Assembly (NCBI RefSeq): GCF_003201105.1
Contig: NZ_QICJ01000004.1
Span: 1 to 64,000 of the forward strand
Direction: 5' to 3'
Source: Dyella sp. AtDHG13
GTDB lineage: Bacteria > Pseudomonadota > Gammaproteobacteria > Xanthomonadales > Rhodanobacteraceae
Length of the DNA: 64,000 bases
Shown: positions 1 to 7,908 of the stretch, in pieces
Numbering within the stretch: position 1 is the stretch's first letter
Layout of the letters: every line of letters starts with the position of its first letter
Notes under the pieces: generated by a model
Told to the model about the DNA's origin: nothing
Database searches by the model: none
What the model saw: the letters and a program-made list of their open reading frames with translations, nothing else
Position numbers and translations under genes: made by a program

Positions 1-1
1 G

Positions 2-205
2 TGCCTCAACGAAAACTGGTTCGTCTCGCTCGAACACGCCAAGGCAACGATTACGGCGTGGCGACGCGACTACAACGAAGTGCGTCCGCACAGCTCGCTC
101 GGCAATCGCACGCCTTCCGCGTTTGCGGCCACACTTCGCGATCAAGGAACCCTTGCCAACCCATCACCGAGCGATAAGCTCGCAACCTTGGACTCTACGA
201 AATAG
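2..205 (+). CDS. IS3-family transposase OrfB, C-terminal end (cut by window edge)
   Basis: The reading frame from base 2 gives 67 residues ending at TAG 203-205. It carries the signature of the end of the IS3-family integrase core: a YNEVRPHSSLGNRTP stretch (rve_3 type), followed by the usual short basic/polar tail. The enzyme is a DDE transposase that moves the element. Only its 3' end is in the window, so whether the gene is intact cannot be judged. Base composition is visibly lower in GC than the chromosome further right. The element's end follows at 211-234. Confidence 0.85.
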   Translation, partial: CLNENWFVSLEHAKATITAWRRDYNEVRPHSSLGNRTPSAFAATLRDQGTLANPSPSDKLATLDSTK

Positions 206-210
206 GTTTT

Positions 211-234
211 GGCCCTAAGCCCGGGGGCAGGTCA
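211..234. repeat. Probable terminal inverted repeat (right end) of the IS3-family element
   Basis: Six bases after the transposase stop lies a stretch whose complement begins TGACCTGCCCCCGGG. It resembles the TGA(A/C)C-G/C-rich ends of IS407-group IS3 elements. The other end lies outside the window, so the pairing and any target duplication cannot be confirmed. The histidine-kinase remnant begins immediately after it, which fits insertion of the element into, or deletion up to, that gene. Confidence 0.55.
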
Positions 235-788: not shown

Positions 789-2312
789 ATGAGAACAAAA
801 ATAATGGCAGCGCTACTTGCCACTTCAGCAACGTTCAGTGCTGGCGCGCAGGAAGGGAAGGTTTCACCCGACATGGTCCAACATGGCAGCGACATACCCA
901 TCAAGTGGAATGCGCCGGCAAGCCCGAAAGACTACGACAAGCGCGAAGTCATGATCCCGATGCGGGATGGGATAAAGCTCCATACGGTCATTCTGATTCA
1001 TCACGGGGCCCATGATCAGCCCATCTTGCTTGAGCGTACTCCGTACAACGCATCCGGCCTGGTGGCAGACAAGCCGCACATGCGGGATGCTGTGTTCGAA
1101 GCAGATCGTGAGTGGGTCGACGATGGTTACATCATCGTCATGCAGGATATTCGCGGTAAGTATGGTTCGGAGGGCGACTATGTCATGTCGCGGCCGTCCA
1201 TCGGCCCACTCAATCCAACGAAAACAGACGATACAACCGACGCCTATGACACCGTCGATTGGCTCGTCAAGAACGTCGCGGAGAGCAACCACAAGGTTGG
1301 CATGATTGGCTCCTCCTATGACGGTTGGACCGTCACGATGGCCCTGCTCGGACCGCATCCAGCGCTTAAGGTCGCAGCACCTGAAAGTCCCATGATCGAT
1401 GGGTGGCTGGGCGATGATTGGTTCCACTACGGCGCATTTCGCCAGTTCCAACTCGACTACATCACCAAGCAGACCAGCGTAAAGGGAGAAGGTGACGACG
1501 TTCCTCGCGATGGCGTTGACGACTATCAGATCTTCCTCGATGCTGGCTCCGCGGGTGCTTATGCAGAAGCGCATGGTCTTAAGCAGCTGGCCTGGTGGAA
1601 TCGCATGTCGGCACATCCCGCCTATGACGCCTTTTGGCAGCTTCAGGCCCTGGACAAGAAAGTTGCTCAGCAACCGTCCAACGTTCCCACGATGTGGCTC
1701 CAGGGGCTTTGGGATCAAGAAGACATGTACGGCGCTGTGCATAGCTGGGCAGCCCTCAAGGCAGCGGGTCACGCTGACAACAACCACCTCGTTATGGGCC
1801 CGTGGTACCACAGTCAAATCAACGGCGTTGCGCGGAATTTAGGGCCCCTCGAATGGAACGGCGATACAGCCACCACGTTCCGTCGTGATGTGATGATCCC
1901 GTTCTTCAATGTCTATCTCAAAGACAAACCGACTGCGCATCCGTTGCCTCCCGTGCTCATCTACAACCCGTCCGAGAACCATTGGGATGCGTTCTCCGAC
2001 TGGCCGGGTACGCAGACCCCGGCGTGCGCGCGCTTTCGCGACCTGTCGCAGATCGTCGGCAGCGTGCTGCAGGTGGCCTTCTACCTCACGCCCATCATGT
2101 GGCTGCCGCGTAGCTTGCCGGCCAACGTGTCGGTGTATCTGCTGGATTTCAACCCGGCCTATCACCTGCTTGAAATCGTGCGCGCGCCGCTGCTCGGCCA
2201 ATGGCCCAGCGCCATGAACTGGGGCGTTTCCGCGGCGCTGGCGGTGGTCGGCTGGGCGCTGGCGCTGTTTATCTACGGCCGCTACAAGCGGCGCATCGCT
2301 TACTGGTTGTAA
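789..2312 (+). CDS. Chimeric ORF: alpha-amino-acid ester hydrolase fused in frame to an ABC-2 exporter permease tail
   Basis: Residues 1-20 form a signal peptide; the start at 789 is chosen for the AAGGGGA ribosome site six bases upstream. Residues ~25-400 match the S15/CocE clan, and closest the alpha-amino-acid ester hydrolases (secreted serine esterases of beta-lactam-type amino esters). The complete triad is visible: Ser176 in GSSYDG, Asp309 in WDQED and His341 in GPWYHS. The jelly-roll C-terminal domain is absent. From about residue 412 (nt ~2022-2034) the sequence instead reads ARFRDLSQIVGSVLQ and onward, the last two membrane segments of a Wzm-type polysaccharide exporter permease. GC content rises at the same point. 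This is a deletion/rearrangement junction; the hybrid is probably not a working hydrolase. An assembly join is the alternative. Confidence 0.8.
   Translation: MRTKIMAALLATSATFSAGAQEGKVSPDMVQHGSDIPIKWNAPASPKDYDKREVMIPMRDGIKLHTVILIHHGAHDQPILLERTPYNASGLVADKPHMRDAVFEADREWVDDGYIIVMQDIRGKYGSEGDYVMSRPSIGPLNPTKTDDTTDAYDTVDWLVKNVAESNHKVGMIGSSYDGWTVTMALLGPHPALKVAAPESPMIDGWLGDDWFHYGAFRQFQLDYITKQTSVKGEGDDVPRDGVDDYQIFLDAGSAGAYAEAHGLKQLAWWNRMSAHPAYDAFWQLQALDKKVAQQPSNVPTMWLQGLWDQEDMYGAVHSWAALKAAGHADNNHLVMGPWYHSQINGVARNLGPLEWNGDTATTFRRDVMIPFFNVYLKDKPTAHPLPPVLIYNPSENHWDAFSDWPGTQTPACARFRDLSQIVGSVLQVAFYLTPIMWLPRSLPANVSVYLLDFNPAYHLLEIVRAPLLGQWPSAMNWGVSAALAVVGWALALFIYGRYKRRIAYWL
2022..2312 (+). pseudogene. Wzm-like O-antigen/capsule ABC exporter permease, C-terminal remnant
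   Basis: The last ~95 codons of the chimeric frame encode the end of an ABC-2 type permease: the ARFRDLSQIVG helix, a YLTPIMWLP membrane segment, the NPAYHLLEIVRAPLLG motif and a final transmembrane helix ending in KRRIAYWL. An intact family member has ~260-280 residues and six membrane segments, so roughly two thirds is missing. The ATPase gene of the same transporter starts 50 bases downstream, the standard wzm-wzt order. Without another permease copy elsewhere, the exporter could not work. Confidence 0.75.
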
Positions 2313-2362
2313 CGGGAAGAGACGTGGACCGTCTCTCGCCTTCCTGCAGGGGTTGAACTGAC

Positions 2363-3130
2363 ATGGCGATCATCGAATTTGAAAACGCGACCGTCGATTT
2401 CGCGATCTACAACGCGACCGGCCGTTCGCTGAAGAAAAACCTGCTGCGCGTGGCGACGGGTGGGCAGATCGGCGCCGACGAGCGCGGCCGCGTGGTGGTG
2501 CGCGCACTGGAAAACCTGACCTTCACCCTGCGCAAGGGCGATCGCGTGGGTTTGCTCGGCCACAACGGCGCGGGCAAGAGCACCCTGCTGCGCGTGCTCA
2601 GCGGCGTGTACGAGCCTTCGGCCGGACGCGCCCGCATCGAGGGCAAGGTCGGTTCGCTCATCGATATCTCGCTGGGCATCGATCACGAGGCCACCGGCCG
2701 CGAGAACATCTATACGCGCGGCGCGCTGCTTGGCATGACGCGGGCGAAGATGAAGGGACACATCGACGAGATCATCGAGTTCTCCGAGCTTGGCGACTTC
2801 ATCGACATGCCGGTGCGCACGTATTCCACCGGCATGCACATGCGCCTGGTCTTTGCCGTGTCCACCATCCTTCGGCCGGAAATCCTGCTGATGGACGAGT
2901 GGCTCTCGGTGGGCGACGAAGGGTTCCGGCATCGCGCGGAAGCTCGCCTGTCCAGCATGGTGGAGGCCACGCACATCCTGGTGCTGGCTTCGCATTCCCG
3001 CGAGCTCATCCTCAACACGTGCAACCGCGTGATCTGGCTGGAGCACGGCAAGATCCGCATGATGGGCGACGTGCGCACCGTTACCGACGCCTACTTCGGC
3101 GTCGCGCCGAGCGAGCTGCACGCCGCCTGA
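2363..3130 (+). CDS. wzt: ABC transporter ATP-binding protein of polysaccharide export (Wzt/KpsT/TagH type)
   Basis: 255 residues. The nucleotide-binding subunit energises export of an undecaprenyl-linked O-antigen or capsule chain across the inner membrane. Visible motifs are Walker A GHNGAGKST at ~66-74, the family-typical degenerate signature YSTGMHMRL at ~154-162, Walker B ILLMDE at ~174-179, and a late H-loop around LASHSRE. The long N-terminal extension before the Walker A is typical of polysaccharide exporters. The C-terminal carbohydrate-binding domain of longer Wzt proteins is absent, so this is the short type. Its permease partner directly upstream survives only as a tail fused to another gene, so this gene may be an orphan. 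Confidence 0.85.
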   Translation: MAIIEFENATVDFAIYNATGRSLKKNLLRVATGGQIGADERGRVVVRALENLTFTLRKGDRVGLLGHNGAGKSTLLRVLSGVYEPSAGRARIEGKVGSLIDISLGIDHEATGRENIYTRGALLGMTRAKMKGHIDEIIEFSELGDFIDMPVRTYSTGMHMRLVFAVSTILRPEILLMDEWLSVGDEGFRHRAEARLSSMVEATHILVLASHSRELILNTCNRVIWLEHGKIRMMGDVRTVTDAYFGVAPSELHAA

Positions 3131-3216
3131 GCATGTCGGTGGTCGGGGCGGAAGGCGACTTTCGCGGCAAAGCGGCCATTGCGAAGCGCACACCCCACGC
3201 AAACCATGCGCGACAC

Positions 3217-3338
3217 GTAGCCCGGATGAAGCCATCGGCGGAATCCGGGTTCACTCCGTGCCACATGTTCCCATATCTGAACCGGCAGCGCTTTCGCACG
3301 GCCATCCCGGATTCCGCCGTTGGCTTCATCCGGGCTAC
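3217..3338. repeat. REP-like inverted repeat pair (33-bp arms)
   Basis: Arm one (3217-3249) begins GTAGCCCGGATGAAGCC; arm two (3306-3338) is its reverse complement with a single mismatch, ending GGCTTCATCCGGGCTAC. The 56-bp spacer carries no gene. Shorter relatives of the same element lie at 3963-3993 and 29824-29844. They resemble the REP/BIME palindromes that RAYT transposases mobilise in gammaproteobacteria. The pair sits between the wzt-like gene and the secreted protein at 3358. Confidence 0.8.
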
Positions 3339-3357
3339 GAACTCCTGGGAGGTCAGC

Positions 3358-3951
3358 ATGTATCGCATGACATGGCAAGCCTTGAAGGTCGCGTTTGTCG
3401 TGGTCGTGAGTGCGGTTTCGCTATCCGCGATGGCGGCGGATGATTCCCCGGCAAACCCGACCGCCGTCTTCGCTACACCGCCGCGCGATGGCTCCCACGA
3501 CTTCGATTTCCTTATCGGCAACTGGAAGGCGCACGTCCGCCGTCTGCCGGATCGGCTGAACAACTCCCACGATTGGGTCGTGTACGACGGCATTTCCAAT
3601 CATCACAAGCTGATCGACACCAACGCCAATTTCGAGCAGTTCGACGTGACCAGCACGGACGGGAAGCTGCACATGCGCGCGCAGACGCTGCGCATGTACA
3701 ACCCGGACACGCATCAATGGAGCATCTATGGGTTGGACCTGGACAAGGGCGAGCTCGATGCGCCCGTCATCGGCGAGTTTCACGGCAACCGCGGCGAGTT
3801 CTACAACCACCAGACCTGGAAGGGGCGCTCGGTGCTGGTGCGCTGGATGTGGCTGAACATCTCACCCCATGCGGCGCGGATGGAGCAGTCGTTCTCGCCC
3901 GATGGCGGGCAGCATTGGGAAGTGAACTGGATTTGCGAGTTGAGCCGATGA
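3358..3951 (+). CDS. Secreted protein, DUF1579-like
   Basis: 197 residues. Residues 1-26 are a classical Sec signal peptide ending in AMA-AD, so the product should be periplasmic or extracellular. The mature part has the HDFDFLIGNWK motif that opens DUF1579/lipocalin-like small-molecule-binding folds, and it ends with a cysteine near the C-terminus. Function unknown. The start at 3358 is placed after an AGGTCAG ribosome site; a longer frame upstream runs through the REP arms and is not credible. The gene is bracketed by REP-like palindromes on both sides and looks monocistronic. Confidence 0.7.
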   Translation: MYRMTWQALKVAFVVVVSAVSLSAMAADDSPANPTAVFATPPRDGSHDFDFLIGNWKAHVRRLPDRLNNSHDWVVYDGISNHHKLIDTNANFEQFDVTSTDGKLHMRAQTLRMYNPDTHQWSIYGLDLDKGELDAPVIGEFHGNRGEFYNHQTWKGRSVLVRWMWLNISPHAARMEQSFSPDGGQHWEVNWICELSR

Positions 3952-3962
3952 TGTTGAGGGAT

Positions 3963-3993
3963 CCCGGATTTCGCTGCGCTGCATCCGGGCTAC
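3963..3993. repeat. Single REP-like palindrome
   Basis: A compact copy of the element at 3217-3338: CCCGGAT, an internal GCTGCGC loop and ATCCGGGCTAC form a hairpin. It lies 12 bases after the stop of the secreted-protein gene and before the convergent SDR gene, where it could also stabilise or end transcripts. Confidence 0.7.
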
Positions 3994-4078
3994 GTGTGGC
4001 GTGATGGTGGGGGCAGGTTGATCCTTGGGTTCACGTGGCGCGTGGCGGGCCACGAAGCACGCCACGCGCCGGCAAGGC

Positions 4079-4828
4079 TTACAGCTGGCTCATGCCGCCG
4101 TCGGCGATCACTTCGGTGCCGACGATAAAGGCGGACTCGCGCGCGGTGAGGTGCAATACCGTGGCGGCGATTTCTTCCGGCGTGCCGAAGCGGCCCAGCG
4201 GCACCTGTGCCTGGATCTGCGCGGCCACCGCATCCAGCGCCGCGGCATCCACGCCAAGCTTGTTGTAGAGCGGCGTGCTCACGGGGCCGGGGCTCACCAC
4301 GTTAACGCGCACGCCGCGCGGCAGCAGTTCGGCGGACAGCGTGCGCGCCAGGCTCACCAGGGCGGCCTTGCTGGCGGCGTAGATCGAGGTATCCGGCATG
4401 CCGATGTGCGCGTTGATCGAGCCGTTAATGACGATGGCCGCGCCCGGGTTGAGCAAGGGCAGCAGGGCCTGCAGCTGGAAGTACGGGCCCTTCACGTTGG
4501 TGTCGAAAATCTGGTCCCACAGCGCGACGTCCGCGTTTTCCAGCGAAGCGAATTTGGCGACGCCGGCGTTGATGAACACGGCGTCCAGGCGCAGGCCGCG
4601 ATGGGCGAGTTCATCGGCCAGCGCCTTGGCGGCCGGCAGCGAGCCGGCGTCGTTGGTCAGCGCCACGGCCTGCGGGCCGATGCTCTCGGCCGCTTGGGCC
4701 AGTGCCGCCCCGTCGCGGCCGGTGATGACCACGCGGGCGCCTTCGGCGGCGTAGGCCCTGGCGGCGGCCAGGCCAATGCCGCTGCTGCCGCCGGTGACGA
4801 GTACGGTCTTGTCTGCGAAACGTTTCAT
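4079..4828 (-). CDS. SDR-family NAD(P)-dependent oxidoreductase
   Basis: 249 residues, classical short-chain dehydrogenase length. The cofactor motif TGGSSGIG is at 12-19, an INAG variant of the NNAG motif is near 86-89, and the active site Ser137-Tyr150-x3-Lys154 is complete (YAASK). The substrate cannot be told; this class reduces or oxidises secondary alcohols/ketones. GRD near residue 37-39 suggests NADP(H) preference. The gene is divergent from the LysR regulator at 4928 with a ~100-bp shared region, the classic arrangement for a LysR target gene. Confidence 0.9.
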   Translation of the reverse strand: MKRFADKTVLVTGGSSGIGLAAARAYAAEGARVVITGRDGAALAQAAESIGPQAVALTNDAGSLPAAKALADELAHRGLRLDAVFINAGVAKFASLENADVALWDQIFDTNVKGPYFQLQALLPLLNPGAAIVINGSINAHIGMPDTSIYAASKAALVSLARTLSAELLPRGVRVNVVSPGPVSTPLYNKLGVDAAALDAVAAQIQAQVPLGRFGTPEEIAATVLHLTARESAFIVGTEVIADGGMSQL

Positions 4829-5845: not shown

Positions 5846-6065
5846 GCATGCGTGCCTGACGGCGCGCGGATGTCATTCGCCCAAAGGCCGGCCGCGGCCG
5901 CTTAGTGTGACAGCTTGTTGACGAGCGCGCCGCGACAATCCTCCGCTCGCCGGTGACGGTTCCATCTCGCGGCACGGCGCCGCCGGGGGTTGATTGTCGG
6001 CGCGCTTGGGTGCTTCATGGCAGGACGGCCGCGCATCAGCGGGCCAGGGCCTAAAGGAGTGGATT

Positions 6066-7112
6066 GTGCCTTCCATCGTTTCGCAGCCGGTTGCGGAGAA
6101 ACTCACGCAATCGGCCATCTTTCTCGTGGTGACGCTGTCGCCGCAGCCGCAGACCGACGTGGCGGTGCGCCAGCTCTGCGCGGACATGTCCTCGCTGCTG
6201 CGCGGCATCGGCTTCCGTCACCCCACGCGGCGCCTGTCGTGCACCATGGGTTTCGGCTCGGAGGCGTGGGATCGCCTGTTCGGGCAGCCGCGCCCCGCCG
6301 ATCTGCATCCCTTCATCGAGATCAAGGGCGAACACCACGCGCCGTCGACGCCGGGCGACCTGCTGTTCCATATCCGTGCCACGCATATGGACCTGTGCTT
6401 CGAGCTGGCGTCGCAGATCATGTCGCGCCTTGGCGATGGCGTGACCTCCGCCGACGAAGTGCATGGCTTCAAGTACTTCGATGAACGCGACTTGCTGGGC
6501 TTCGTCGACGGCACCGAAAACCCCTCCGGCCAGGCCGCGCTGGATGCCGTGCTCATCGGTGAGGAGGACCCCGATTTCATCGGCGGCAGCTACGTGATCG
6601 TGCAGAAATACCTGCACGACCTGGCGGCGTGGAACAAGCTGCCGGTGGAGCAGCAGGAGCGCATCATCGGGCGGCACAAGCTGTCGGACATCGAGCAGGC
6701 CGAGGACGCCAAGGCGAGCTACGCGCACAACGTGCTCACCAATATCGAGGAGAACGGCGAGCAGTTGCAGATCGTCCGCGACAACATGCCGTTCGGTGAC
6801 GTGTCCAAGGGCGAGTTCGGCACCTACTTCATCGGCTATGCGCGCTCGCCGGCGCGCACCGAAAAGATGCTCAACAACATGTTCGTCGGCAACCCGCCCG
6901 GCAATTACGACCGACTGCTGGATTTCAGCAAGGCGGTGACGGGGTCGCTGTTCTTCGTACCTACCGCCAGCTTCCTCGACGACGTGGATCCGCAAGGCGC
7001 GCCCGCGCCGGTCGCGGCGATCGAGGACGCATCCCATGCGAGCGCGCCCGCGCCTTCGCCGGACGGTTCGCTCGGTATCGGTTCGCTCAAAGGAGAACCC
7101 GCACATGAATAA
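6066..7112 (+). CDS. DyP-type heme peroxidase, encapsulin cargo
   Basis: 348 residues; GTG start chosen because AAAGGAG lies six bases upstream. A haem peroxidase of the dye-decolourising family: GFVDGTENP (the GxxDG motif, ~145-153) supplies the catalytic Asp, His221 in YAHNV is the likely proximal haem ligand and Arg238 in VRDNMPFGD the distal Arg. It has no Tat or Sec signal, so it is cytoplasmic. After the peroxidase domain comes an Ala/Pro-rich linker (~306-332) and the C-terminal peptide DGSLGIGSLKGEPAHE (333-348), which matches the known encapsulin cargo-loading peptide of DyPs. The next gene, overlapping by 8 bp, is the encapsulin shell, so the enzyme is packaged in the nanocompartment. 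Confidence 0.95.
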   Translation: MPSIVSQPVAEKLTQSAIFLVVTLSPQPQTDVAVRQLCADMSSLLRGIGFRHPTRRLSCTMGFGSEAWDRLFGQPRPADLHPFIEIKGEHHAPSTPGDLLFHIRATHMDLCFELASQIMSRLGDGVTSADEVHGFKYFDERDLLGFVDGTENPSGQAALDAVLIGEEDPDFIGGSYVIVQKYLHDLAAWNKLPVEQQERIIGRHKLSDIEQAEDAKASYAHNVLTNIEENGEQLQIVRDNMPFGDVSKGEFGTYFIGYARSPARTEKMLNNMFVGNPPGNYDRLLDFSKAVTGSLFFVPTASFLDDVDPQGAPAPVAAIEDASHASAPAPSPDGSLGIGSLKGEPAHE

Positions 7113-7908
7113 TCTTCACCGGAAGCTTGCGCCCATTTCCACCGGGGCGTGGGAGCAGATCGAGCAGGAAGCGGCACGCACCTTGAAGCGCCATCTGGCC
7201 GCGCGCCGCGTGGTGGACGTGATCGGGCCCAAGGGCACGGAGTTCTCCTGCGTGGGCACGGGCCATCAGGAAAAGATCAAGTCGCCGGACAACGGCATCG
7301 AAGCGCATCTGCGCGAGGTGAAGCCGGTGGTGGAGTTGCGCGTGCCGTTTGAGCTCTCGCGCAAGTCGCTGGATTCGGTGGAGCGCGGCGCAAACGATCC
7401 CGACCTGCAGCCGCTCAAGGACGCCGCGCGCAAGATCGCCTTCGCCGAGGATCGCGCGGTGCTCGAAGGCTACGAGCAGGCGCATATCGAAGGCATCCGC
7501 AAGGGCAGCAGCAACCCGGCCATCGCCTTGCCGAAGGAAGCCACCGGCTATCCCGCCGTGGTGGCGCAGGCGGTGAGCCAGCTGCGCGAGATGGGCGTCA
7601 ACGGGCCGTACACGCTGCTGCTGGGCGAGCAGTCGTACACGGCGGTGAGCGCGGCGACCCAGCACGGCTATCCGGTGGCGCGCGACATGCGCAACCTGGT
7701 GGACGGCGACATCATCTGGGCGCCAGCCATCAGCGGCGGCGTGGTACTGAGCACGCGCGGCGGGGATTTCGAGCTGCATCTGGGGCAGGACATCTCCATC
7801 GGTTACCTCAGCCACAACGAAAGCACGGTGCAGCTGTACCTGCAGGTGTCCTTCACCTTCCTGCAGCTGACGGCCGAAGCCGCGGTGATGCTGTCGCCCA
7901 GCAAGTAG
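7105..7908 (+). CDS. Family 1 encapsulin shell protein (linocin M18-like)
   Basis: 267 residues, the usual length for the HK97-fold shell protein formerly annotated as bacteriocin linocin/CFP29. Characteristic parts are the N-terminal NNLHRKLAPIS...W segment, the E-loop region with VELRVPFELSR, and a C-terminal half containing LLLGEQSYTAV and an SIGYLSH strand. It self-assembles into a protein cage enclosing DyP peroxidase. The ATG overlaps the end of the DyP gene by 8 bp, and its ribosome site AAAGGAG (7089-7095) lies inside the codons for the cargo-loading peptide, so translation of cargo and shell is physically coupled. Confidence 0.95.
   Translation: MNNLHRKLAPISTGAWEQIEQEAARTLKRHLAARRVVDVIGPKGTEFSCVGTGHQEKIKSPDNGIEAHLREVKPVVELRVPFELSRKSLDSVERGANDPDLQPLKDAARKIAFAEDRAVLEGYEQAHIEGIRKGSSNPAIALPKEATGYPAVVAQAVSQLREMGVNGPYTLLLGEQSYTAVSAATQHGYPVARDMRNLVDGDIIWAPAISGGVVLSTRGGDFELHLGQDISIGYLSHNESTVQLYLQVSFTFLQLTAEAAVMLSPSK

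Follow-up and report, generated by a model that had tools for sequence, protein, structure and literature searches.

Does an open reading frame that runs from an ester hydrolase into the end of a polysaccharide-export permease encode a working hybrid, mark the loss of an exporter, or record an accident of recombination? This question is raised by a locus near one end of contig C4 in the draft genome of Dyella sp. AtDHG13 (5.1 Mb, 32 contigs). The window analysed here is the first 64 kb of that contig, and all coordinates refer to it.

The fused reading frame and the position of its join

The open reading frame (ORF) at 789-2312 encodes 507 amino acids and is free of stop codons throughout. Residues 1-411 (789-2021, + strand) resemble alpha-amino acid ester hydrolases, with the catalytic triad kept and the C-terminal domain absent. 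They are followed in frame by the last 96 codons and the stop of a gene for a Wzm-type ABC-2 permease (2022-2312, + strand). In NCBIfam, residues 57-410 of the fused protein match TIGR00976 (CocE_NonD) with an E-value of 8e-41 and 140.6 bits (cut-off 66.3), while residues 414-507 match positions 174-272 of the 272 in NF050109, the profile of the galactan Wzm/RfbD permease (E 5e-25). The Pfam model Peptidase_S15 lies on residues 60-343. PF01061 did not match the fused protein at E 0.001, whereas the intact permeases of two relatives, genomes G013 and G003, do match it. The GC content at third codon positions (GC3) rises in a step at the join, from 0.66 in the hydrolase part to 0.885 in the wzm tail; the wzt gene behind it has a value of 0.878. 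A first-pass annotation had described an in-frame fusion with no stop at the join, a retained triad and a lost C-terminal domain, and the reading frame, the split of the NCBIfam and Pfam domains and the GC3 step all bear this out.

When the two halves were compared separately, they met at the same place, at approximately 2019-2022. Hydrolase relatives can be aligned as far as the motif WPG..TP, which ends at fusion residue 411. The DNA match to the closest intact wzm-wzt pair found (genome G013) extends from base 2020 to 3108 with 83.7% identity, and there is none upstream. At the join, the fusion reads WPGTQTPACARFRDL, whereas the hydrolase relatives have WPG..LTPLYLQ there, indicating by alignment that the last hydrolase residue is approximately Pro411 and the first permease residue approximately Ala412. 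The latter is equivalent to residue 171 of the 266 in the Wzm of G013. Within the assembly, the 161 bases around the join have a long match only to themselves; the 12 other matches are 16-46 bases long (E ≥0.016), and no long repeat or copy of an insertion sequence (IS) was found at the join. A GC-rich direct repeat of 11 nt occurs at 2023 and 2177, with both copies inside the wzm tail.

We then asked whether the fused protein belongs to a conserved family. A hydrolase ORF was present at 134 loci, four of which turned out to be overlapping copies of the present locus, leaving 130 others (128 distinct); four more were added later. The permease tail was absent from every one of the 134 other hydrolase ORFs checked (130 + 4). 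No second fusion was seen in the same genus (20 genomes, including the present one) or among the matches listed for the same family (233 genomes including the present one, 163 of them with a match, at E 1e-20). In GTDB contigs, considering the best 80 of 246 loci, the best segments stop at query residue 430 or earlier. Eleven of the listed hydrolase matches reach residues 444-446 and were considered as candidates for homology across the join. None of the 11 has the permease tail, so these matches are gapped over-extensions. Plasmids were considered as a source as well: 69 of 72,556 plasmid records matched, none of them covering 80% of the query, and where annotations exist, the 15 plasmid matches listed fall on a hydrolase gene or on an ABC-transporter gene, not on the two together. 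A narrow literature search on CocE-permease fusion pseudogenes returned no match. Relatives with the same fused protein, which would have counted against the annotation, were not seen among the matches listed and the loci checked.

The hydrolase part, the permease tail and wzt

The first part of the fusion resembles the alpha-amino acid ester hydrolases (CocE/NonD; PDB 1mpx, 2b4k and 1ryy), residues 44-415 matching 1mpx with an E-value of 1.5e-153, and shares their Ser-Asp-His columns. It differs from them in having permease sequence where the C-terminal domain, presumably a jelly roll, should stand. Ser176, Asp309 and His341, which we take from motif reading to be the triad, are kept in the fusion and are identical in all 128 distinct homologues aligned. 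Among 141 columns conserved at 95%, the fusion breaks four; the mean for the homologues is 1.6, and 18 of the 128 break at least four. The hydrolase part is thus free of clear decay, which would fit a recent event or, less likely, a retained function.

The C-terminal domain is found within the same ORF in 133 of 134 relatives (129 of 130, and all four fetched later), and the ORF of the single relative without it reaches the end of its contig. In the 64-kb window, the best match to this domain had an E-value of 3.9 and was located far from the fused gene. With the domain of a relative as query, the sole match in the assembly was an intact gene on contig C13, which encodes a hydrolase paralogue of 640 aa.

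The nearest hydrolases, with 73-76% identity, come from Acidobacteria, Sphingomonas and Duganella (best 80 of 246 loci in GTDB contigs), and identity to the homologues of the 19 other genomes of the same genus is 60-62%. Judged by these values, the gene was probably acquired horizontally. Homologues in other genera of the same family are up to 69% identical (among the matches listed), which makes a source inside the Rhodanobacteraceae possible too; a foreign origin is not firm.

The second part of the fusion corresponds to the end of a Wzm-type export permease (NF050109, galactan_ABC_perm, profile positions 174-272; PDB 9qfx, which the intact G013 relative matches at E 7e-55). Unlike such a permease, the fusion lacks approximately 170 N-terminal residues. 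A complete ABC-2 membrane domain comprises about 260-270 residues, of which only the last 96 are present, and the hybrid is therefore without most of a permease. Leaving aside the distant Wzm of contig C7 (28% identity), only residues 170-266 of a G013-type Wzm are encoded in the assembly. Indeed, a search of the assembly with the first 169 residues returned nothing but this distant protein. The annotation was thus right that wzm is broken here: its N-terminal half was not found in the assembly.

Directly behind the fusion lies an intact wzt-like ATPase gene (2363-3130, + strand) with no intact permease gene beside it. The 255-aa product matches NF050108 (E 7e-89); ABC_tran is its sole Pfam match, and there is no match to Wzt_C. 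It is identical to the Wzt of G013 at 230 of 254 residues, and the wzm tail is identical to the Wzm of G013, from residue 171 onwards, at 85 of 96. With G003 as outgroup, private amino-acid changes number one in wzt compared to 15 in G013, and two in the wzm tail compared to five. These low numbers give no sign of long relaxation. An unrelaxed Wzt would fit a recent event; a Wzt still in use would fit too.

O-antigen export

The annotation had concluded that the O-antigen exporter is probably broken. If so, the main exporter of the strain would be lost and the cells would make rough LPS. In favour of this, a truncated Wzm adjoins an intact Wzt. However, an intact wzm-wzt pair is present elsewhere in the genome, on contig C7, where it encodes a Wzm of 270 aa (ABC2_membrane) and a Wzt of 463 aa with a Wzt_C domain. 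Its neighbours encode Glycos_transf_2, Glyco_trans_1_4 and WsaF-type proteins and an RmlB-like dehydratase, and ORFs named by eye as RmlA-, RmlD- and ManC-like also belong to the cluster. Such a gene set is the usual make-up of a cluster for ABC-dependent O-polysaccharide. When nine proteins of the C7 cluster were searched against the window (tblastn, E ≤0.01), Wzt alone found a match, at the wzt gene starting at 2363. For the glycosyltransferases, RmlA/B/D and ManC of the C7 type, the window, with the contig start about 2 kb to the left, contains no homologue of the C7 queries. Given the intact C7 pair in its sugar cluster, the loss of the main O-antigen exporter is highly improbable, and the fused locus is no ground for predicting a loss of O-antigen export in this strain. 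Export via the C7 proteins would be unaffected by the fusion.

The broken pair is also of another type than the C7 pair. It is galactan-exporter-like, with a resemblance to NF050108 and NF050109 that lies under the curated cut-offs: for NF050109, the intact G013 and G003 relatives score 275 and 289 bits, under the cut-off of 380. In the ORF lists covering about 20 kb around the wzm-wzt pairs of G013 and G003, no glycosyltransferase cluster was seen by eye. Two large membrane proteins encoded 4-7.5 kb from the G013 pair match TPR models only (Pfam). The neighbour genes of the two pairs (L043 in G013, L044 in G003) differ between the genomes.

Origin of the fusion and its surroundings

The contig begins inside an IS3-family element, of which the 3' end, with the transposase tail and the right terminus, occupies 1-234 (+ strand; NF033516 transpos_IS3 and rve_3 on 2-202). 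Five other contig ends, namely both ends of C8 and the starts of C5, C9 and C15, carry this right terminus as far as base 234. In the window, the element is followed by the relic of a histidine kinase C-terminus (235-655, + strand), which is cut at its 5' side by the IS. The relic carries HATPase_c (Pfam, 230-496) and, by eye, a GSGIGLSL-type motif. An in-frame TGA stands at 494-496, and the frame runs past it to a stop at 653-655, with a GC3 of 0.586.

We have good confidence in an origin by illegitimate recombination, in which a lower-GC, probably imported segment was joined to an accessory wzm and a chimeric pseudogene was created. The segment would consist of the kinase relic and the hydrolase gene, with the IS3-family element as its left border. 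Non-homologous recombination would have put it into the middle of wzm, at the cost of the first ~170 residues of Wzm and of the C-terminal domain of the hydrolase, and the reading frame would have been preserved by chance, at a likelihood of about one in three. The hybrid would no longer work as a permease, and as a hydrolase it would probably be inactive or weak; the adjoining Wzt would now be without its partner. Because neither part shows clear decay, the event was probably recent. Chimeric pseudogenes formed by illegitimate recombination are a known class, and the present locus resembles it in having two truncated genes joined in frame, in one genome, with the missing halves absent; we noted no difference. 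The fused ORF is most likely a pseudogene of this kind.

Points against this explanation are the absence of clear decay, which would also fit a retained function, the origin of the hydrolase, which is not firmly foreign, and the position of the join, about 2.0 kb from the contig start. In a draft of 32 contigs, with five other contig ends stopping within the same IS, two unrelated pieces could have been wrongly joined near the end of C4. Such an assembly error is improbable: the join lies outside any repeat, and after a simple mis-join the lost halves should sit on other contigs, where neither the N-terminal half of wzm nor a second C-terminal hydrolase domain was found. The IS itself might have made the join: it could have transposed and then caused a deletion next to it, or copies of it could have recombined. 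The element has at least six right ends in the assembly and borders the segment on the left, and an action of this sort could form part of the history that we favour. As the cause of the join we consider it unlikely: no IS sequence was seen by eye at the join, and in the other IS copies the match to the window ends at base 234-245, with 1.8 kb of other DNA in between. The annotation had linked the event to the nearby IS. The element stops at 234, approximately 1.8 kb from the join, and the kinase relic and the hydrolase part intervene, so any direct role is conjectural.

The fusion could also be a functional protein, namely a periplasmic amino acid ester hydrolase anchored in the inner membrane, with a signal sequence, an exported alpha/beta-hydrolase domain and a permease-derived C-terminal anchor. 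The open frame, the retained triad and the low level of decay agree with this, as do a signal sequence (read by eye) and a single stretch, residues 476-498, that is strongly hydrophobic. Nevertheless, the fusion was seen in one genome only, it is without a domain that 133 of 134 relatives have, and the genome contains an intact paralogue. Moreover, the stretch of permease at the join is cytoplasmic in ABC-2 permeases, so its fusion to an exported domain would invert the topology. Taken together, a working anchored enzyme is very unlikely. If it did exist, we would be seeing a fusion protein soon after its birth, and Wzt would be either silent or reassigned. Under the chimeric pseudogene explanation, the locus shows clearly how a join, probably a recent one, broke an accessory exporter. 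In annotations, the ORF at 789-2312 is best labelled a likely chimeric pseudogene rather than the representative of a fusion family.

On the right-hand side, the first gene common to the relatives G012 and G015 is located at 3358-3951 (+ strand) and forms the right edge of a variable region. In these two genomes (L184 and L185), the match starts at 3347/3348 with 80-83% identity, and nothing further left was detected at E 1e-8 (blastn, in the stretches fetched). For G019, G014 and G005, short repeats aside, the match begins only at 4078-4079. These starting points indicate that the left part is a variable slot. To the left of the conserved gene, the DNA of G012 shows no continuous synteny with the present genome, in which its partial matches are scattered (the best, on C15, reaches 93% over about 620 bases). 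A short repeat at 3216-3339 is similar to its reverse complement (75.6%). A motif at 3961-4001 recurs many times in the genome, and in G019 it occurs at 147-base steps. Further to the right, a gene for a DyP-type peroxidase (5994-7112) is directly followed by an encapsulin gene (Linocin_M18, 7105-7908), which together are a common cargo-shell pair.
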